From Anaerolineaceae bacterium (GTDB taxonomy: Bacteria > Chloroflexota > Anaerolineae > Anaerolineales > Anaerolineaceae), in the NCBI GenBank assembly GCA_002702705.1, contig PABH01000049.1:1-64000 (forward strand): a stretch of 64,000 bases of DNA. The letters are read 5' to 3'. Both the position numbers and the translations under genes were made by a program. Below, piece after piece: positions 8,137-18,779 of this stretch. The notes under the pieces were generated by a model that saw only the letters and a list, made by a program, of their open reading frames with translations, ran no database searches and had not been told where the DNA came from. The stretch's first letter is position 1. The number at the start of each line of letters is the position of its first letter.

Positions 8137-8655
8137 ATGAATAAAAAATCTCAAACCAAATCAAATACCGGTGATGAACCTGACAATATCAGCCGGCGTA
8201 ATTTTTTACAGGGCAGTCTGAAAGCCCTAACCGCACTGGCTGCCATTGAACTGGGCGCTGCTGGTTTGTTGTTTTTACGGGCTCGCAGCCTGGATGGTGA
8301 ATATGGCGGCATCATGACGGTCGGAAAGGTGGAGGATTTTACACCCGGTTCCGTCGTGGAATACGAGGATGGAAATTTTTTCCTGGTGCGTGTGGAAGAC
8401 GGCGGTTTTATGGCCGTTTACCGGCGCTGTCCTCACTTGGGCTGCACGGTGCAGTGGGTGGCGAAAAAACAAAAATTCTTCTGTCCCTGCCATGCCGCCA
8501 GTTTTGACCCCTACGGCGAGTTTGAAAATCAGCCCGTTGCACGGGCCTTGGATACCTTCAAGGTGTTTTTTGAAGACGACATGGTGAAAGTGGATACCTC
8601 TCAAATGAGGACGCGAGAACACCATAGTGCTCAGGATATCAGTTACCAATCCTAA
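8137..8655 (+). CDS. Rieske 2Fe-2S protein
   Basis: 172 aa from ATG 8137 with GAGAGGAG upstream. The N-terminal SRRNFLQG followed by one hydrophobic helix (ALTALAAIELGAAGLLFL) resembles a Tat-type membrane anchor. The cluster-binding motifs are CPHLGC and CPCH (Rieske C-x-H...C-x-x-H), both complete, with the two extra Cys that form the usual disulfide. It transfers electrons from quinol at cytochrome b to a c-type heme. The stop lies 22 bp before the cytochrome c start, so translation is probably coupled. Confidence 0.96.
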   Translation: MNKKSQTKSNTGDEPDNISRRNFLQGSLKALTALAAIELGAAGLLFLRARSLDGEYGGIMTVGKVEDFTPGSVVEYEDGNFFLVRVEDGGFMAVYRRCPHLGCTVQWVAKKQKFFCPCHAASFDPYGEFENQPVARALDTFKVFFEDDMVKVDTSQMRTREHHSAQDISYQS

Positions 8656-8677
8656 GCCGGAGAAAGGAGATGATGCC

Positions 8678-9574
8678 ATGAATAAAACCCAATGGATCAG
8701 CTTGATCGCTCTCCTGATTCTGGTCATTTCCCTGCCGGTGTATGCGGTGTTTGAAAACCAGCGAATGGAAAAAGCACAGGTGCATCTACAGGAACAATAT
8801 GTTTTGGAAGGTATCGATGTATATTTGCAAAATTGTGCTTCTTGCCATGCAACGGATGGCAGCGGGATGGGGATGATGCCTGCATTAAACCGATCTGCAT
8901 TGGCCGAAGCAAACTCCGACATGCTTTTCAGAACGATTGCTCGTGCCACACACGGCACAGCCATGGCAGCCTGGCACAATGAAGAAGGCGGTATTTTAAA
9001 CGATTACCAGATACAAGAAATTGTGGCACTCATCCAAAATGTGGACTGGGACATGGTATCTCGCATGGCGGCTGTTCGTGGTTATGTTGAACCGCCGGTG
9101 CCCGCTGCGGAAACCGGCATGGCCTACCTGGAAATTGAAGATATGGATGACCCGCATCAATGTTTGGACTGTCACGAAGAGCCAGATATCCATGCTGAAC
9201 TGTTTGGTATTAACTGCGCACGCTGTCACAACACGGAAGCATGGAAACCAGCAGTATTAACCCGCCATGATTTTCTGTTGGATCATGGTGGAAAAGGTGA
9301 AGTGGACTGTGCCACCTGCCACCCCAATAATTATGTTGAATACGATTGTTATGCCTGTCATGAGGATCACCAACCGCCTGAAATGGAAACGGTGCATGTC
9401 GCAGAAAATTTAACGGAATATGAGAACTGTGCTTCCTGTCACCCGACGGGTGTAGCCGGTGAAGCGGATCAATTACGAAATATGAAACCGGAATTATACG
9501 GTCAACTGGATTTTAACACTACGGTTAATTTCACATTTGATCCAAATGAGATTGAATTGGTACCAGCGAAATAA
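8678..9574 (+). CDS. Six-heme c-type cytochrome (monoheme domain plus five-heme module)
   Basis: 298 aa from ATG 8678 with AAAGGAG at 8663-8669; the ORF extending to 8627 overlaps the Rieske gene and lacks a site. An N-terminal hydrophobic anchor (ISLIALLILVISLPVYAV) is followed by a class I cytochrome c domain: NCASCH with a later TAMAAW supplying the likely distal Met. A second part has five CxxCH motifs (CLDCH, CARCH, CATCH, CYACH, CASCH). This five-heme part is closely paralogous to the end of the next protein. Likely the electron acceptor of the Rieske protein, feeding the larger cytochromes (inference). Confidence 0.93.
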   Translation: MNKTQWISLIALLILVISLPVYAVFENQRMEKAQVHLQEQYVLEGIDVYLQNCASCHATDGSGMGMMPALNRSALAEANSDMLFRTIARATHGTAMAAWHNEEGGILNDYQIQEIVALIQNVDWDMVSRMAAVRGYVEPPVPAAETGMAYLEIEDMDDPHQCLDCHEEPDIHAELFGINCARCHNTEAWKPAVLTRHDFLLDHGGKGEVDCATCHPNNYVEYDCYACHEDHQPPEMETVHVAENLTEYENCASCHPTGVAGEADQLRNMKPELYGQLDFNTTVNFTFDPNEIELVPAK

Positions 9575-9635
9575 ACAGAAATAAAAAACAATAAAGGGTT
9601 TGTAACAAAAAACAAAAAGGAAAGGAGAGAAACTG

Positions 9636-10784
9636 ATGCAAATGAAAAAACTACCCCGCAAATACATGGTTTTATTCGTAATCGCATTTGTGGGAGCATT
9701 GGTCTTGAGCGTCTTGTTATACCTGAAATTCACGCATCAATTAACTCCTGGGCCGTTATCCGATTCACACCCCAAAGGTGTTTCGCTGGGTGGGGTTAAC
9801 TCTCACGCGGAACTAGAAACCAAATGCACTCACTGCCACGCCCCGGTGCATTGTTTGGAAGATACGCGCTGCCAGGATTGTCATAAAGATATTGCCAAAG
9901 ATCGTTTGGATGTATCCACCCTGCACGGGCGACTACCCGGGGTATCCCGCTGCCAGAACTGCCACACGGAACATAAAGGCCCTGACAATGAGTTGACGGT
10001 GCTGGCATACAATAATGTGGATCACTACCTGTTGGCTGGCTTCAGCCTGGATCAACATACTGAAGATTATGACGGCAGCAGTTTTAATTGCTCCACCTGT
10101 CACACACAGGAAGGTAGTTTTATTGAAACGATTGACTGTGTTAGCTGTCATGCCGAAAAAGATCATGACTATATCGCCACCCATATTGAAACGTACGGGT
10201 ATGCCTGTGCCGATTGCCATGATGGCAAAGATCGCATGATGGATGGTCTGAACCATGAGGAGTTTTATCCTCTCATCGGCGGGCATGAAACATTGGCCTG
10301 CGCGGACTGTCACCAGGATGGTGGTTATGTGGGATTAACACAAACCTGTTATGACTGCCACGCGGAACCTGAAATGCACGCCGGTGTATTTGGAACCGAT
10401 TGTTTACGCTGTCATTCCGAAGTCGCCTGGGCGCCTGCAGAATTAAAACAACACACCTTTATGATTCAACATGGTGAGGAAGAGATCGAAAGTTGTGAGA
10501 CCTGCCATGCTGGAACCTATACCGAATATCCATGTGGAAGCTGTCACGAAGATGCGGATATGGTGAGCGCGCATGCCGGTGTCGAGACACCTAATCTCCA
10601 CGATTGTATTTCCTGCCACCCCACAGGGCGAGGCAGTCAAATTACGGCACAAACCGGAAAACCAGACAATCCGGCGGGTGCTGACCAAGCGGTTAATGCC
10701 AATAATATGGCAATTGATCCAGTACTAAATCAAGAGCAATCCCAAGAGCAAAATCATGGCGAAGAACCACCTAAGAACAAATAG
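9636..10784 (+). CDS. Twelve-heme c-type cytochrome
   Basis: 382 aa, ATG 9636 with AAAGGAG at 9621-9627. One N-terminal membrane segment (MVLFVIAFVGALVLSVLLYL), then twelve CxxCH motifs: CTHCH, CQDCH, CQNCH, CSTCH, CVSCH, CADCH, CADCH, CYDCH, CLRCH, CETCH, CGSCH, CISCH. The last five match the five-heme module of the preceding gene, including MH-VFG-DC, W-PAEL, QHG and CHPTG. The tail is hydrophilic, Gln/Asn-rich and heme-free. Probably an anchored multiheme conduit outside the membrane; partner order is inferred from gene order. Confidence 0.93.
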   Translation: MQMKKLPRKYMVLFVIAFVGALVLSVLLYLKFTHQLTPGPLSDSHPKGVSLGGVNSHAELETKCTHCHAPVHCLEDTRCQDCHKDIAKDRLDVSTLHGRLPGVSRCQNCHTEHKGPDNELTVLAYNNVDHYLLAGFSLDQHTEDYDGSSFNCSTCHTQEGSFIETIDCVSCHAEKDHDYIATHIETYGYACADCHDGKDRMMDGLNHEEFYPLIGGHETLACADCHQDGGYVGLTQTCYDCHAEPEMHAGVFGTDCLRCHSEVAWAPAELKQHTFMIQHGEEEIESCETCHAGTYTEYPCGSCHEDADMVSAHAGVETPNLHDCISCHPTGRGSQITAQTGKPDNPAGADQAVNANNMAIDPVLNQEQSQEQNHGEEPPKNK

Positions 10785-10825
10785 CCCAGAAGTGGCCAAC
10801 GATTGGCCCGGAGAGGATGGGTAAT

Positions 10826-13201
10826 ATGAAAAAAATTATCATTTTACTTGTAGCCATAAACCTCAGTTTGATTGTTCTGCTGGCTGGTCTGTATTACCTG
10901 GCGGAGACATATCCCTTTCACCCGGGGAGTCCGCTGTTTGGCGTACAGAGTTTTGCAGAAAACCAACGAATCAAACTGACCAGTGATCCAATTCGTCAGG
11001 CTGAAATGAGTTTTGAACTTGTTGAACGCCGTCTGGCAGACCTGGCGATGGTCACAAATGCGGCCCATTTGGAGCCAGCTATTAAGGCGTTTGACCGCTG
11101 TTTAACCGCGGCCATCCCCAAGATTGAAGAAATTCCTCCAGAAAAAGCCGAAACCCTCTATCAAGAAGTGAGAAATCTAACGTTTCGAGCCGATATTGTT
11201 TTGGCAGACCTGGAACAACAGGTGAATGGAGAGTACTTGATTGTAATGAGGAATAAATTCGCCGCATTACAATCAACCGTGAATCCGGTACTTATTCCAA
11301 TCACCGGCGCAACACCAAACATGCCAATGGGTATCCTCGGAAAATTGATTCCCTTCCTTGGTAAGGAAGTTGACCATGGTGATTTTCCATTAAATGGCGG
11401 TCATGCGGATATTGACTGTCTGGATTGCCACGAAGATGGCGTTTATACAGAAACCCCTACGGAATGCGGCAGCTGCCATATTTTGGAGAGAGAACTGGAT
11501 TACTCCCAGACCTATGTCTTTAATTTGAATATGGATAACCACGCCAACTATCCGGAAAAATATGCACAGGACTGTGGAGAATGTCACCTGGTTAATAATT
11601 GGACCAGCCTGGAATTTGACCATACCAATGTGGGTACCTGCAAATCATGTCATAAAAATGATCTGCCTGAGCAAATTCCTGTAACTGGCCTACAGCCTGT
11701 AAGTTTTTCTTTGCGAGAATACAGCTATGAACCACTTTCCGTGAACGCTGATCACTACCCTAACGATGATTGTGCTTTATGCCATACGAATACGGAAGAC
11801 TGGGCAGAGGCTGTGTTTGACCATTACCAGGGTGACTGCGAATCCTGTCACGGTTTTACGGAAGAAACAAACCTCCATCCCCTTGGTGGTGAATGTCTGA
11901 AAGTGGAAAGCTGCGAATCCTGCCATAGTTATGACCTGCATGAAGAAGAGTATGCAGGTTCCTGTACCAATTGTCATAACGATGTGGAAGATTGGCTGAA
12001 CATTGAAGTGGACCATACCGAATACACCAACTGTTTTGACTGCCATGTGGATGATCGCCCGGTGGAACATTACAAGAGCAACTGTTCTACCTGTCATAAT
12101 ACCAGCCAGTGGGTGCCGGCCTTCTTTGACCACAGCCCCGATTCCACCTGTGTATCTTGTCACGCTGAACCAGTGGGTCATTATGGCAATGAATGTGCCA
12201 CATGCCATTCCATGGAAACCTGGGAAAATGGACGGTTTCCGCACACCTTTGATAACTGTTCCAGCTGCCACAACAGCCCCCAGAATCACTATCCGGCTAC
12301 CTGTACCACCTGCCACACCACCCAGTCCTGGCATACCATATCCATTGACCACACCGATTTGGTGTTATGCACCCAGTGTCATGCCGCCCCTACAGCCCAT
12401 TACGATGGCGCCTGCCAAAACTGCCATGACATTTCCAATTGGACTGGTGCTGTCTTTAACCACATGGGCCAGACGGAATGTTTGCAGTGCCATACAGCAC
12501 CCGGTGGGCATTATGAAGGTGTTTGTTCCAACTGCCATAACACCTTCAACTGGAGCCAGATTAATTTTGACCACAGTGGATTAACTTATTGTGAAGGCTG
12601 CCACAGCAGTCCGGAGAACCATTATGACGGAACTTGCTCGGGCTGCCATACCACAACCACCTGGTCCAATGTGATCTATACCCATACCGATAACGCCACC
12701 TGTTCCAGCTGTCATGAAAAAGAAGGACACTGGCCGGGACAATGCTCTCGCTGCCATATCACGTCTGCCTGGAATATCTACACCTTTGATCACACCGGGT
12801 ACAGTGATTGTAAGGCCTGCCATGCCCGCCCGAGTGGTCATACCCGCGGACAGTGTTCTCGCTGCCATACCACGGATGATTGGACGCCCATCCCAACCCA
12901 GGTGCCTACCTTAACACCGACCGAAACACAGCCAGAGGAACCGGAAGAAAAATCGGTACCGACCCAACTGCCGCCAACCAGCGAAGTGATTGTGCCGCCC
13001 GTCAGCACGACGGCCGTGCCCATAATCATACCGACTCAACCACCAGCAACTGCTGTGCCAACCGAACCGGTTGAACCGACCACCGTCCCGACCGAGATGC
13101 CCACCCCGGAACCGCCGGTTGTTTCACCGGAACCACCGGTAGAACCAACCCCAACCCCGGGTGAGTTCCCAGAACCGCCGGTGCCCGTGCCCGGTTTGTA
13201 A
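10826..13201 (+). CDS. Twenty-four-heme c-type cytochrome with Pro/Thr-rich tail
   Basis: 791 aa from ATG 10826; ATG 10817 is possible but sits on the GGAGAGGA site. An N-terminal membrane segment (IIILLVAINLSLIVLLAGLYY) and a heme-free helical region of about 180 residues precede 24 CxxCH motifs. From the tenth motif on they form about eight tandem units of 36-37 residues with two hemes each, of pattern CxxCH-W-F-H-CxxCH-GHY. Conserved FDH and HY histidines could be axial ligands. The last ~104 residues have no heme and are rich in Pro, Thr, Val and Glu, like a cell-wall-spanning spacer. It ends the operon before a terminator. Likely a long heme wire or surface cytochrome (inference). Confidence 0.93.
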   Translation: MKKIIILLVAINLSLIVLLAGLYYLAETYPFHPGSPLFGVQSFAENQRIKLTSDPIRQAEMSFELVERRLADLAMVTNAAHLEPAIKAFDRCLTAAIPKIEEIPPEKAETLYQEVRNLTFRADIVLADLEQQVNGEYLIVMRNKFAALQSTVNPVLIPITGATPNMPMGILGKLIPFLGKEVDHGDFPLNGGHADIDCLDCHEDGVYTETPTECGSCHILERELDYSQTYVFNLNMDNHANYPEKYAQDCGECHLVNNWTSLEFDHTNVGTCKSCHKNDLPEQIPVTGLQPVSFSLREYSYEPLSVNADHYPNDDCALCHTNTEDWAEAVFDHYQGDCESCHGFTEETNLHPLGGECLKVESCESCHSYDLHEEEYAGSCTNCHNDVEDWLNIEVDHTEYTNCFDCHVDDRPVEHYKSNCSTCHNTSQWVPAFFDHSPDSTCVSCHAEPVGHYGNECATCHSMETWENGRFPHTFDNCSSCHNSPQNHYPATCTTCHTTQSWHTISIDHTDLVLCTQCHAAPTAHYDGACQNCHDISNWTGAVFNHMGQTECLQCHTAPGGHYEGVCSNCHNTFNWSQINFDHSGLTYCEGCHSSPENHYDGTCSGCHTTTTWSNVIYTHTDNATCSSCHEKEGHWPGQCSRCHITSAWNIYTFDHTGYSDCKACHARPSGHTRGQCSRCHTTDDWTPIPTQVPTLTPTETQPEEPEEKSVPTQLPPTSEVIVPPVSTTAVPIIIPTQPPATAVPTEPVEPTTVPTEMPTPEPPVVSPEPPVEPTPTPGEFPEPPVPVPGL

Positions 13202-13837: not shown

Positions 13838-13923
13838 GGGGAAGGCTTCTAGCCGGGTTGACCGAAGCCAGATTGTGGGATTCGGCATAAAAAGAATGGT
13901 AACTAAGACGGGGTTTATAAATA

Positions 13924-14112
13924 GGTGCGACGCACTTTATTTTACAGGAGACCCTTTTTAGGCAAGCCCTTTGGCAAACCATTCAGTCGATAACCAGTTC
14001 AGTGCGTTGCACCTTGGAGCAAGAAGGTGCAACGTACTTTTTTGAGGCTGGGTAATTTGGGCAGAGGAAAATCTTATTACCCTGCCCCCTTAACAAACCA
14101 AGTACGTCGCAC
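13924..14112. repeat. Element with GGTGCGACGCACTT ends and an internal hairpin
   Basis: GGTGCGACGCACTT (13924-13937) is the inverted counterpart of AGTACGTCGCAC (14101-14112). Inside, AGTGCGTTGCACCTT (14001-14015) pairs with AAGGTGCAACGTACT (14024-14038) over an 8-nt loop, followed by TTTTTTG, so the inner hairpin could also act as a terminator. Same end sequence as the 16758-16845 element. Confidence 0.6.
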
Positions 14113-14218
14113 GAAGAAGTTATCTGTTATTCCAGTGTTAAAATTAATTAAATCCATCGTTTCATAATAAAAATGAAGGTTTTTCCTGGTTTAAACGTCT
14201 AATAGATAGAAATAATTT

Positions 14219-14776
14219 ATGGATACTATTACCCTGATTCAACAATGCCAAGCTGGTGATACAACTGCGATTGAGGTGCTGGTTGAGACCTATCAAAGCA
14301 GCATGTATCGGTTAGCTATCCTCTTGCTGGATGATCCGGCAGAGGCGGATGAAGCCGTGCAAAATGCTTTTATTTCCGCCTGCCGTTCGATCCATTCCTA
14401 TCAGGGAAATGCATCCTTACGCACCTGGCTGACGTCAATTGTGATTAATGAGTGTTACAACATATTGCGAAAAAGGGCAAGAATGGAGCGGCTTAAAGAG
14501 AGAATTTTGATCTTTGTCCGTCTCTTTGCCCCTACAAAACACCCCGAAAATAAGGTTATTGAGCGTGAGGAAAACGACTTGGTTTGGCATACGATTCAAA
14601 CGCTTGGTGAGAAACATCGGGTTCCCATTATTTTGAGATATTACCAGGATTTATCAGTAATAGAGATTGCTCAGATACTCAATATCAAAGAAGGGACCGT
14701 TCATTCTCGGCTAAATACAGCCCGGGAACGTTTGCGTAAGGCGTTAAGTCATTTGAAGGCAGAAGATTATGAATGA
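14219..14776 (+). CDS. ECF-type RNA polymerase sigma-70 factor
   Basis: 185 aa. Region 2 spans about residues 12-85 (ALVETYQSSMYRLA-like helix, DEAVQNAFISACRSI, TWLTSIVINECYNILRK) and region 4 about 115-180 (RVPIILRYYQDLSVIEIAQILN, GTVHSRLNTARERLRKAL). No region 3, as in ECF sigmas. ATG 14219 has only a weak ribosome site. The last bases overlap the start of the anti-sigma gene by 8 nt (stop TGA at 14774, next ATG at 14769), so the two are translationally coupled. The regulon cannot be told from the sequence. Confidence 0.95.
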   Translation: MDTITLIQQCQAGDTTAIEVLVETYQSSMYRLAILLLDDPAEADEAVQNAFISACRSIHSYQGNASLRTWLTSIVINECYNILRKRARMERLKERILIFVRLFAPTKHPENKVIEREENDLVWHTIQTLGEKHRVPIILRYYQDLSVIEIAQILNIKEGTVHSRLNTARERLRKALSHLKAEDYE

Positions 14777-16511
14777 AATTTCACATAAAAAGGCGCATCG
14801 TTGGATCCAGAAGTCTAGCGACGGCATGCTGACGGATAGGGAAGAGGTATTACTGGCTAATCATTTATCCGGATGTGATGGTTGCCGGTCCTACCAGAAA
14901 GAGTTGGAAGACTTACAAACTTCCATCAAAGTATCATTGCAACGGCGGACTGTTATGCTTACACGTCGCTTCCCTCAAAAAAAAGGAGAGAAACAACCGG
15001 CTCAGTTGTATCAAACATTACGGAGGACTATTCGTATGAAAAAAATTCAAAAGGTAGCGTATGCGTTTGTTGGCGTTTTTTTGATGGCTGTGCTCTTATT
15101 TGTGGGCATAAGTCTGGGTCAACAAATTATTCCAACCCCTGGCATGAGTGAAACCTCAATGCCCACAAAGAACGTTCTTTCTACCCAACAGCCATTGGTG
15201 GAGGAGGAGGTCACGATTGAATCCTTGGACGTTGTTTTAATTGATTTCTACTTCTATAGCTCCTTGACTCGGGAACAGGAAGCTGTAAATGCGCTGGTCA
15301 GTCAATTTAATCAAATTCATAAGGATGAAATTGTTATCCAGCAAACTAAAGATTTTCCTGATCTGGCTGGCGAGGGGGGATACTATCAAGGTATGGCAGA
15401 GCAATTTGATTGTTTCGTCACACAAACAGACCCAAGAGGTGCAGCATTGTCAGGTGCTGTTCTTGACCTGAACGCCTGGATGGAAGCGGAAAAATCAGCT
15501 TTTCAGCAAGATTTCGATCAGACCATCCTGGATGCCTCTCGCTACGAAGGCAGCCTTATTAATTTGCCTCTTTCTATTCAGCCCCCAATCATGGTATATA
15601 ACGCTGAATTACTGGCCCGGCATGGGTTGGAACCCCCGTCTACCGACTGGACCTTTGATGAATTTTTAGAATTGATTACATCCGTTACCTCGATTTCCGG
15701 GTCCGAAAAAAGTTATGGTTTTTTACTTAGTAGTAATTCAGTAAACACATCTGAACTATTGTATGCTGGGAACGACCTGCAATGGCTTGATTTATCCGGT
15801 GATTTTCCGATGGTAAACTTAAACACCCCCGAAATGGTGAATACATTAAGCTGGTTAAACGATATGGAAAAGTCCGGGGTTCTGTTTGAAAGTTCACCTG
15901 AGGAAGATTGGTGGACAGCAATCAGTAGCGCAGTTCAGTCAGGGCAAATCGGTTTTTGGACGACGTACGCAGGAAGCGAGCATGAACAATTTTTTAAACA
16001 ACAAAAGGCAACCTTCGAGATTGGTATTGCACCGATTCCGTTTACAGCAGAACCAAATGGCCCCTACGAGCACGCTTATCAGCAAGGGTTCTACATCTCC
16101 CACCTTTCACAGAATCCAGAGGCCTGCTGGGAATTCGCAAAATACTTATCAGAACACTCCGCTGTGTTGAATGGTATACCCGCGCGCACTTCGGTGTCTT
16201 TTTCTCCCACCTGGGAATCTCAGGTGGGTGTTACACAAACAGCCATCTATCGGGTCGCATTGGCAAACACGCTCGTTGAAAATGACCCTCATCGATACAA
16301 CTATCTGCTTATACCCGTCAATAACTGGTTATGGCGAGTTTATCAGAATATTAAAATCGGGAATGACCCTATGCAGGAATTAAGTCTTGCGCAACAGAAA
16401 GCCGATGTATACCTGGCGTGTTTGACCCCACTGGATGTGTCCCATCTAACGGACAAGGACTTATCCGCGGAAGTAGAGGCTTGCGCAAAACAAAGCGATC
16501 CATCTTATTAA
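14769..16511 (+). CDS. Anti-sigma factor fused to an extracellular solute-binding domain
   Basis: 580 aa. Residues 1-50 form a zinc-finger anti-sigma domain with HLSGCDGC (the H-x3-C-x2-C signature) on the cytoplasmic side. A membrane helix follows at about 95-117 (VAYAFVGVFLMAVLLFVGISL). From about 155 to 560 the sequence is a complete family-1 extracellular solute-binding fold: REQEAVNALVSQFNQ, LDLNAWMEAEKSAF, LPLSIQPPIMVYNAELL, DWTFDEFLELI, GIAPIP, NPEACWEFAKYLSEHS. No permease or ABC ATPase gene is adjacent. The natural reading is a one-protein receptor: an outside ligand, probably a sugar or oligosaccharide, controls release of the ECF sigma factor encoded just upstream (inference). Confidence 0.88.
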   Translation: MNEISHKKAHRWIQKSSDGMLTDREEVLLANHLSGCDGCRSYQKELEDLQTSIKVSLQRRTVMLTRRFPQKKGEKQPAQLYQTLRRTIRMKKIQKVAYAFVGVFLMAVLLFVGISLGQQIIPTPGMSETSMPTKNVLSTQQPLVEEEVTIESLDVVLIDFYFYSSLTREQEAVNALVSQFNQIHKDEIVIQQTKDFPDLAGEGGYYQGMAEQFDCFVTQTDPRGAALSGAVLDLNAWMEAEKSAFQQDFDQTILDASRYEGSLINLPLSIQPPIMVYNAELLARHGLEPPSTDWTFDEFLELITSVTSISGSEKSYGFLLSSNSVNTSELLYAGNDLQWLDLSGDFPMVNLNTPEMVNTLSWLNDMEKSGVLFESSPEEDWWTAISSAVQSGQIGFWTTYAGSEHEQFFKQQKATFEIGIAPIPFTAEPNGPYEHAYQQGFYISHLSQNPEACWEFAKYLSEHSAVLNGIPARTSVSFSPTWESQVGVTQTAIYRVALANTLVENDPHRYNYLLIPVNNWLWRVYQNIKIGNDPMQELSLAQQKADVYLACLTPLDVSHLTDKDLSAEVEACAKQSDPSY

Positions 16512-16682: not shown

Positions 16683-16757
16683 CTGGTTACGAGGAATTTT
16701 GAACTCCGAATCTAATCGTTTGGCAAAATGCCTCCGAAAGGTGTCATTTAAAAAAGG

Positions 16758-16845
16758 GGTGCAACGCACTGTATACGTCATCAGCTAATAATTTGATATG
16801 AGATTTGCCTAGAAGACTATTTGGTGAGCAAAAGTGCGTCGCACC
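16758..16845. repeat. 88-bp element with GGTGCAACGCACT terminal inverted repeats
   Basis: GGTGCAACGCACT (16758-16770) is the inverted counterpart of AAGTGCGTCGCACC (16832-16845), one mismatch. MITE-like in size; same family as the 13924-14112 element. Too small to encode a protein. Confidence 0.6.
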
Positions 16846-16865
16846 TCGGAACTGCTTCTATTTAT

Positions 16866-18779
16866 TTAATCATCTTTGAACTGTGTTTCGTATAACTGGG
16901 CATATAAACCTTGCTGCTCGATCAGGTCGTGATGTTTACCAGCTTCCACAATTCGTCCCCTGTCGATGACCAAAATCTGATCCGCAGCCAGGATGGTGCT
17001 CAGACGGTGGGCGATGACAATACTGGTACGCCCGACCATGACATGTTTTAACGCTTCTTGAATCAGCGATTCGGATTCACTGTCGAGGTGGCTGGTAGCT
17101 TCGTCCAGAACCAGGATGCGCGGGTCTTTTAAGATGACGCGGGCTAATGCGATGCGCTGTTTTTCACCGCCGCTCAGGCGGTAACCGCGTTCCCCCACAA
17201 CGGTGTCATATCCCAGTGGCAAACCCATAATGAAGTCATGGATATTGGCAACCTTGGCGGCTGTCTCCACTTCTTCCTGTGTTGCATCCAGGCGAGCGTA
17301 GAGCAGGTTGGTACGGATCGTATCGTGGAAGAGGTACGATTCCTGGGTAACCATCCCAATTTGATCACTTAAGGATGCCAGGGTTACATCTCGCAGATTT
17401 ATGCCGTCGATCCGCACTGCACCCTGGCTGGGGTCGTATAGGCGCGGAATGAGATAGGTTAAAGTTGTTTTCCCGGCTCCCGATGGGCCGACCAGAGCTA
17501 CCAATTGACCGGGGTTCACCTTAAATGATATATCCTCTAAGGCTACCTGACGGGCCTGGGTGTGGGCTTCTTCGGGTGTGACGATTTCTTTTTTTGCTTC
17601 ATCGCCGGATAAGGCCAATTCCACGGAATCGGTACGCCCAAAACGTTTCACTGCACTTAAGCCGCCGTTTTTATCATCCTGGTATAAAAAGTGAACATGG
17701 TCAAACTCCAGTTCTCCGTTAACACGCTCTAACACAAGTGCGTTTTCTTTTTCCGGGATATCTTCCGGAAGATCAATGATTTCAAAAACACGCTCAAAAC
17801 TAACCATGGAGGTAGCAAATTCAACCGGAGCATTCGCCAGTCCCTCCAGCGAGGAATAGAGGCTGGTGAGGTATGCGCCAAAGGCTACAATGGTGCCAAC
17901 CGTGAAGGCGTCTTTGATGACCAGGTACCCGCCGATACCGTATACCAGGGCGGTACCGACCGCGCTGATCAGGCCGACGATGACCATAAAGGCAACACTG
18001 ATCACAGCCCGTTCAATGCCGATATCCCGCACTTGTTTGGCACGGTTATCAAAACGATCTACCTCAACCTCTTGGCGGCCAAATAATTTCACCAGTAAGG
18101 CGCCGCCGATATTAAGGGTTTCGTTCATCATGGCATTCATGCGGGCATTAATATCCATTGATCTGCGGGCGATGTCCCTTAAACGATTGGCAAGCCGTTT
18201 GGTAACCACGATAAAAAGCGGCATGATGATCACACTCACAAGGGTTAAACGCCATTCCAGGGTCAACATAACAGCCAAGACAGCGATTGCTTGGATAACA
18301 TTGGTGATTAGATTAACAATGGTATTGCTGATGGCGTTTTGCGCCCCAACGACATCATTGTTTAAGCGGCTCATTAGTTCACCTACTTTGGTATGGGTGA
18401 AGAACCGCAGGCTCATACGCTGTAAACGGGCATATAAACTCACCCGCAAGTCATAGATTACCCCTTCCCCAATGCTGGCATTTAAACGGCGCTGAATCAC
18501 GTTTAAGCCGCCACCAACAGCCGGAATTAATAACAAAGCCACCGCTAAAAAAATCAAACGTTGTATATTTTTTTCTGGTAGGGTCTTATCGATCAAATCG
18601 CGTAAGATTAAAGGGGAGAGCAGGGTTAAACCCGCCGAAAGCAGGATTAAAATCAAGGTAAAAATGATTTGTTTGCGGTAGGGTAATGCATAATCCAATA
18701 CCCGTTTTAATAAAGCCCGGGTTAATTTTGGGCGCCCTCCGGGCGCGTGTATATAATTAAACCAACCTTTTCCCATCAT
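16866..18779 (-). CDS. ABC transporter, fused permease/ATPase (exporter type)
   Basis: 637 aa half-transporter. Six membrane helices lie in residues 30-330 (e.g. IIFTLILILLSAGLTLLSPL, LIFLAVALLLIPAVGGGL). The nucleotide-binding domain has Walker A GPSGAGKTT, Q-loop at MVTQESYLF, signature LSGGEKQRIALA, Walker B ILVLDEATSHLD and switch AHRLSTI, all intact. About 40 extra charged residues (around 375-415) are inserted near the start of the ATPase domain, between the first strand and the segment before Walker A. GGAGG lies about 10 nt before ATG 18779. Homodimeric lipid/drug/peptide exporter; substrate unknown. Confidence 0.93.
   Translation of the reverse strand: MMGKGWFNYIHAPGGRPKLTRALLKRVLDYALPYRKQIIFTLILILLSAGLTLLSPLILRDLIDKTLPEKNIQRLIFLAVALLLIPAVGGGLNVIQRRLNASIGEGVIYDLRVSLYARLQRMSLRFFTHTKVGELMSRLNNDVVGAQNAISNTIVNLITNVIQAIAVLAVMLTLEWRLTLVSVIIMPLFIVVTKRLANRLRDIARRSMDINARMNAMMNETLNIGGALLVKLFGRQEVEVDRFDNRAKQVRDIGIERAVISVAFMVIVGLISAVGTALVYGIGGYLVIKDAFTVGTIVAFGAYLTSLYSSLEGLANAPVEFATSMVSFERVFEIIDLPEDIPEKENALVLERVNGELEFDHVHFLYQDDKNGGLSAVKRFGRTDSVELALSGDEAKKEIVTPEEAHTQARQVALEDISFKVNPGQLVALVGPSGAGKTTLTYLIPRLYDPSQGAVRIDGINLRDVTLASLSDQIGMVTQESYLFHDTIRTNLLYARLDATQEEVETAAKVANIHDFIMGLPLGYDTVVGERGYRLSGGEKQRIALARVILKDPRILVLDEATSHLDSESESLIQEALKHVMVGRTSIVIAHRLSTILAADQILVIDRGRIVEAGKHHDLIEQQGLYAQLYETQFKDD

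Follow-up and report, generated by a model that had tools for sequence, protein, structure and literature searches.

The stretch of DNA analyzed here, hereafter the window, comprises 64,000 nucleotides from an Anaerolineaceae bacterium. Its forward strand carries a gene for an ECF sigma factor of 185 aa (14219..14776; Pfam Sigma70_r2, 1e-15, and Sigma70_r4_2, 1.4e-11), whose 3′ end shares 8 nt with the start of a gene for a 580-aa anti-sigma factor with a predicted extracytoplasmic solute-binding protein (SBP) domain (14769..16511; identified by its open frame and domains). The latter protein displays a zinc-finger anti-sigma (ZAS) domain at residues 7–49 (14787..14915, forward strand), a single transmembrane (TM) helix at about residues 93–117 (15045..15119, forward strand), and an SBP domain of the SBP2 (C-terminal) type at residues 148–580 (15210..16508, forward strand). 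The proposal of the earlier note that these three elements form one chain overlapping the sigma gene proved exact in its coordinates: the open reading frame begins with an ATG at 14769, its stop ends at 16511, and it runs in a single frame throughout with zero internal stops.

The ZAS domain is matched weakly by the NCBIfam antisigmaE model (residues 7–49, E 6.9e-6, below the model's own cut-off) and by Pfam zf-HC2 (E 0.00063; 20.2 bits, just below the cut-off of 22.2), and four relatives of the same architecture pass the zf-HC2 cut-off with 30–34 bits. The zinc-binding signature Hx3Cx2C is complete in the window protein, as H32-x3-C36-x2-C39. The membrane helix was recognized from a Kyte–Doolittle peak of 2.66 and the positive-inside charge: because 11 lysines and arginines precede the helix versus 1 following it, an N-in topology is predicted, which puts the ZAS domain in the cytoplasm and the SBP domain on the outer side. 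We found no lipobox and just one SBP domain in this protein, the ZAS domain and one membrane helix standing in place of the signal. Among its Pfam matches up to E 10 there is no RsgI model, and the sigma factor is of the ECF type. An AlphaFold2 model of the protein, with two rows from the locus L024 in the alignment, reached a mean pLDDT of 40 and was left out of fold comparisons.

About 355 nt downstream of the anti-sigma gene lies a convergent gene for an ABC exporter-type protein of 637 aa (16866..18779, reverse strand; ABC_membrane and ABC_tran), whose proximity does not imply membership in the system. As this is the sole ABC gene among the open reading frames at 9–23 kb, where no importer permease or ATPase gene was found, the earlier statement that no transport genes are adjacent is right for importers and wrong for this exporter-type gene. 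Just upstream on the same strand are three consecutive multihaem cytochrome-like genes (8627–13201) with 6, 12 and 24 CXXCH motifs. The sigma/anti-sigma pair is flanked on both sides by an element of about 90 bp with 14-nt terminal inverted repeats (AGGTGCRACGCACT...AGTGCGTYGCACCT), at 13923–14014 and 16757–16846, with no other copy within the window. Genome-wide, there are 22 exact repeat ends compared to 0 in the reversed control; the interior of the element is poorly conserved and its length constant at 89–91 bp. The element is MITE- or binding-site-like. A 15-nt inverted repeat with a T-run behind it (14001–14045), intrinsic-terminator-like in appearance, overlaps one end of the flanking element.

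An ECF-type promoter motif, TGAAGG-N16-CGTCTAA (14174..14202, forward strand), lies ahead of the sigma gene, 45 nt from its start. Its position is conserved before sigma orthologues (a regular expression recovers it in 14 of 25), with about the same distance in G006, a genome of the window's genus, and a looser match in most others. Since this conserved promoter sits before the sigma gene and the genome of 5.9 Mb holds no other exact copy, the sigma/anti-sigma pair looks self-regulated. A genome-wide search allowing two mismatches returned 221 sites, fewer than the 520 of the reversed-pattern control, and is therefore uninformative on the regulon. Two one-mismatch sites opened in detail revealed no convincing target gene, and a stricter pattern recovered, genome-wide, the pair's own site and one site with a shorter spacer. 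In the arrays of relatives described below, no promoter site before a lipoprotein gene was convincing, except one in G004, of the same genus, which precedes a broken sigma remnant.

Regarding the occurrence of this architecture in relatives, whose absence the earlier note would have taken as a refutation, we found six further ZAS–TM–SBP–SBP proteins in four other genomes. They measure 934–1001 aa, the longest including codons ahead of the probable start. They are coded by G006 (L026 1711–4515), an uncultured Anaerolineae genome (L024 5730–8573), G596 (L169 4473–7286, a copy that runs into the contig end) and, at three places, G456 (L073, L171 and L173). An ECF gene is visible directly upstream in four of the six (those in G006, L024, L169 and L171), and the genes in L073 and L173 lie near contig starts. 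The fused gene of G006 stands at the head of an array of double-SBP and permease genes; that of L024 has no transporter nearby. All six possess two SBP domains, the window protein being the only single-SBP case seen. This singularity, together with the rarity of the architecture, might raise the suspicion that an error of assembly or frame has merged two genes, which is nevertheless extremely improbable given the occurrence of ZAS, TM and SBP in the same order at six loci of other assemblies; the frame of the window gene is likewise unbroken, so that the joining of two separate genes by a frame change, considered by the earlier note, is not borne out.

The SBP domain was identified by a strong match to Pfam SBP_bac_1 (residues 165–463; 2.9e-20; 73.9 bits versus a cut-off of 26), and its SBP2 type by the family alignment, a tree and four cysteines. 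Among solved structures, those closest to it are of proteins that bind arabino-oligosaccharides, maltose and trehalose; PDB matches to maltose-binding-protein fusion constructs were set aside as tags. Its strongest relatives are lipoproteins of about 820–970 aa with two SBP domains, not importer subunits. A tree built from 61 SBP2 domains places the window domain, at 100/100 support, together with domains from lipoproteins of G692 (48% identity), G001 (a third genome of the window's genus) and G006. The fused SBP2 domains form no clade, at least five changes of the fused label being forced; both their monophyly (AU p 7e-53) and a group of the window SBP2 with that of G006's own anti-sigma factor (AU p 2e-50) are rejected, with p values that are indicative, since the tested groupings were picked after the tree rows had been seen. 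The fused SBP domains thus have no single fused ancestor exclusive of the lipoproteins. The four cysteines, C215, C453, C551 and C572, are found in 57, 58, 58 and 51 of the 61 domains, respectively. As the equivalents of the first two are jointly absent in the related lipoproteins L082 and L084, which retain the last two, this pattern suggests the pairs C215–C453 and C551–C572.

The cytoplasmic half of the system points elsewhere. The sigma factor nearest to that of the window is the one from G006 (63% identity; clade support 98/99, qualified by two very long branches that join the same group), and the ZAS–TM part shows 33% identity to its G006 homologue over residues 1–150. Because the sigma factor and ZAS domain match those of G006, whereas the SBPs of that anti-sigma factor belong to a different subfamily from the window domain, the cytoplasmic and outer halves differ in history. 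A more recent-looking case is seen in G004, where a lipoprotein gene (L030 621–3158) has 95.5% DNA identity to the SBP part of the G006 anti-sigma gene over 801 aligned bp, an alignment that ends where the query ended. The identity begins at L026 2157, at about residue 149, right behind the membrane helix and linker, and the SBP pair in G004 stands under a lipoprotein signal instead of ZAS–TM. Ahead of this gene, the promoter persists in G004, as does a segment resembling the 5′ end of the sigma gene (77% over 75 nt), after which comes apparently broken sigma sequence, judged by eye. We infer a loss of the sigma factor and ZAS domain in G004, with the SBP pair kept behind a lipoprotein signal, although the events may have run in the opposite order. 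Given the ungrouped fused SBPs in the tree, the match of the sigma factor and ZAS domain to the owner of another SBP subfamily, and the swap in G004, sensor parts appear to undergo exchange.

The outer domains also vary beyond the SBPs. Orthologues of the sigma factor were detected in 43 of 350 genomes of the same order at E ≤ 1e-42, and the anti-sigma factors beside orthologous sigma factors (L145–L159, L087 and L088) display PD40 β-propeller, sortilin/BNR-like or LysM outer domains, with some ZAS proteins having nearly no outer domain. Double-SBP genes in G692 and G001 are directly preceded by an ECF gene and one for a putative anti-sigma factor, which is DUF4367-type in two cases; these ECF/anti-sigma pairs beside separate double-SBP genes are the unfused counterpart of the window design.

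Like class I (ASDI/ZAS) anti-sigma factors such as RsiW, the window protein is co-encoded with an ECF sigma factor and combines the Hx3Cx2C signature, which about half of the class members have, with one membrane helix and an extra C-terminal domain expected to perceive the signal (PMC7406223). It differs in that its outer domain is a complete SBP. Fused domains are reported to be conserved within anti-sigma groups (PMC7406223), whereas the outer domains here differ from one close orthologue to another. In Clostridium thermocellum, SigI/RsgI likewise employs a membrane anti-sigma factor, whose outer domain is the sensor of extracellular substrates (PMC12203970, PMC4711584), but the sigma type and anti-sigma domain differ, and the RsgI outer domains are carbohydrate-binding or enzyme-like modules rather than SBPs. 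The SBP_bac_1 domain is homologous to the family-1 (UgpB/MalE-like) sugar-binding SBPs of ABC importers; unlike these, the window protein has no lipoprotein signal and no importer genes, and features a fused cytoplasmic anti-sigma domain and four family-specific cysteines. With the double-SBP lipoproteins of FtsX/MacB-type loci it shares the SBP2-type domain and the four conserved cysteines, but it has one SBP domain and lacks their signal. Periplasmic-binding-protein domains are also fused directly to a signaling protein in the BvgS/EvgS-type sensor kinases, but there the SBP family is SBP_bac_3 and the output is a phosphorelay rather than sigma release. We found no paper on SBP-fused anti-sigma factors in the searchable open literature, which leaves most subscription journals and protein-architecture databases outside its reach. 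This variant of ECF/anti-sigma signaling, with an SBP as the probable sensor domain, is real, recurrent and sparsely distributed, and its sensor domain is new as far as that literature shows.

The locus is probably an autoregulated ECF sigma/membrane anti-sigma pair with the SBP domain as its extracytoplasmic sensor, the SBP part having been exchanged with double-SBP lipoproteins. In favor of this are the two-gene operon with its 8-nt overlap, the intact fused frame and domains, the six further fusions and the unfused pairs, the varied outer domains beside orthologous sigma factors, the conserved promoter, the SBP tree with its AU tests, and the case of G004; against it stand the zf-HC2 score of this copy, below the Pfam cut-off, and a genome in which no homologue of the array-linked permease was detected. 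Going by ECF/ZAS biology (PMC7406223), the ZAS domain would keep the sigma factor membrane-bound until an external event, in all likelihood a ligand entering the SBP cleft or a contact of the SBP with a protein, exposes the anti-sigma factor to cleavage (PMC7406223, PMC12203970). Once released, the sigma factor would transcribe the operon in which it is encoded, using the TGAAGG-N16-CGTCTA promoter, and perhaps further genes. Upon exchange with the lipoproteins, the window copy would have retained the second SBP type alone. Should the sigma factor indeed be gated by the SBP, transcription would be coupled to a solute-binding protein directly, with no transporter or kinase in between, and anti-sigma sensors would prove exchangeable between neighboring genes.

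The loci in which the related lipoproteins are found bear on the nature of the signal. Among 41 fetched loci with double-SBP genes, an FtsX/MacB-type permease is present in 20 and a MacA/HlyD-like adaptor in 19, several of the loci lacking them being cut by contig ends; no sugar-importer permease was noticed beside the double-SBP genes on gene maps read by eye. The ATPase of these loci resembles LolD/MacB and the adaptor the RND/MacA adaptors (NCBIfam). In G001, G004 and G006, tandem double-SBP arrays are followed by an FtsX-type permease, and the system also occurs outside the class (G874, G998 and others). The finding points to a widespread, seemingly undescribed ABC locus type composed of a double-SBP lipoprotein and an FtsX/MacB-type permease; no paper describing such an SBP/MacB pairing was found.

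The earlier proposal that external nutrients set transcription is upheld as to an intact ZAS–TM–SBP protein coupled to an ECF sigma factor, but not as to the nutrient as the signal. For a nutrient sensor, with a sugar or oligosaccharide as the ligand of the SBP and uptake or degradation genes switched on by the sigma factor, there is the sugar-type ancestry apparent from the nearest solved structures, which would favor a carbohydrate ligand, and the precedent of RsgI-type anti-sigma factors that sense polysaccharides (PMC12203970). We regard it as unlikely, as the closest relatives are tied to FtsX/MacB-type systems and no second promoter copy was found near uptake genes. Weighing against the simple sensing of a nutrient, the link to FtsX/MacB-type loci argues for an envelope-related or antimicrobial cue, or else for a partner protein. 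Accommodating this, the protein could, tentatively, sense such a cue or the state of an FtsX/MacB-type ABC system and its double-SBP lipoprotein, comparable to BceAB-type flux sensing: double-SBP genes share loci with the permease and adaptor, the fused gene of G006 heads such an array, and in G692 ECF/anti-sigma and double-SBP genes alternate before the permease. Against it, the array-linked permease has no detectable homologue in the window's genome, in a search controlled by strong matches in three relatives of the genus, and the L024 fusion stands apart from any transporter. The same absence of the permease, the single promoter copy and the apparent broken sigma gene of G004 would fit a remnant, whose array and transporter were lost and whose sigma/anti-sigma pair regulates itself alone; with both genes intact and the zinc motif and four family cysteines retained, we consider this rather doubtful.

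Returning to the SBP as an exchanged sensor of an autoregulated pair, a broader arrangement is conceivable, if somewhat speculative: SBPs may be exchangeable outer sensors in this Chloroflexota-related group, the same SBP pair being deployed as a lipoprotein beside an FtsX/MacB-type ABC system or, after an N-terminal swap, as an anti-sigma factor, such that ECF/anti-sigma pairs and the apparently undescribed SBP-linked non-importer ABC system make up one modular signaling/transport system.

The conserved combination of a double-SBP lipoprotein, a MacA-like adaptor, a large FtsX permease and a LolD/MacB-like ATPase was observed class-wide and beyond, in L078–L086, L092, L167, L174, L177, L181 and L202–L207. 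In L165 (G692:C60), cassettes of an ECF sigma factor, a putative anti-sigma factor and a double-SBP gene repeat ahead of an FtsX-type permease. Beside the double-SBP array of L028 (3819–13214; G001:C8) are open reading frames that resemble, by eye, signal peptidase I (two of them), MauE/DoxX, TlpA and a secreted Cys-rich protein of small size, along with an ABC exporter, a cluster that resembles one for peptide maturation and export.
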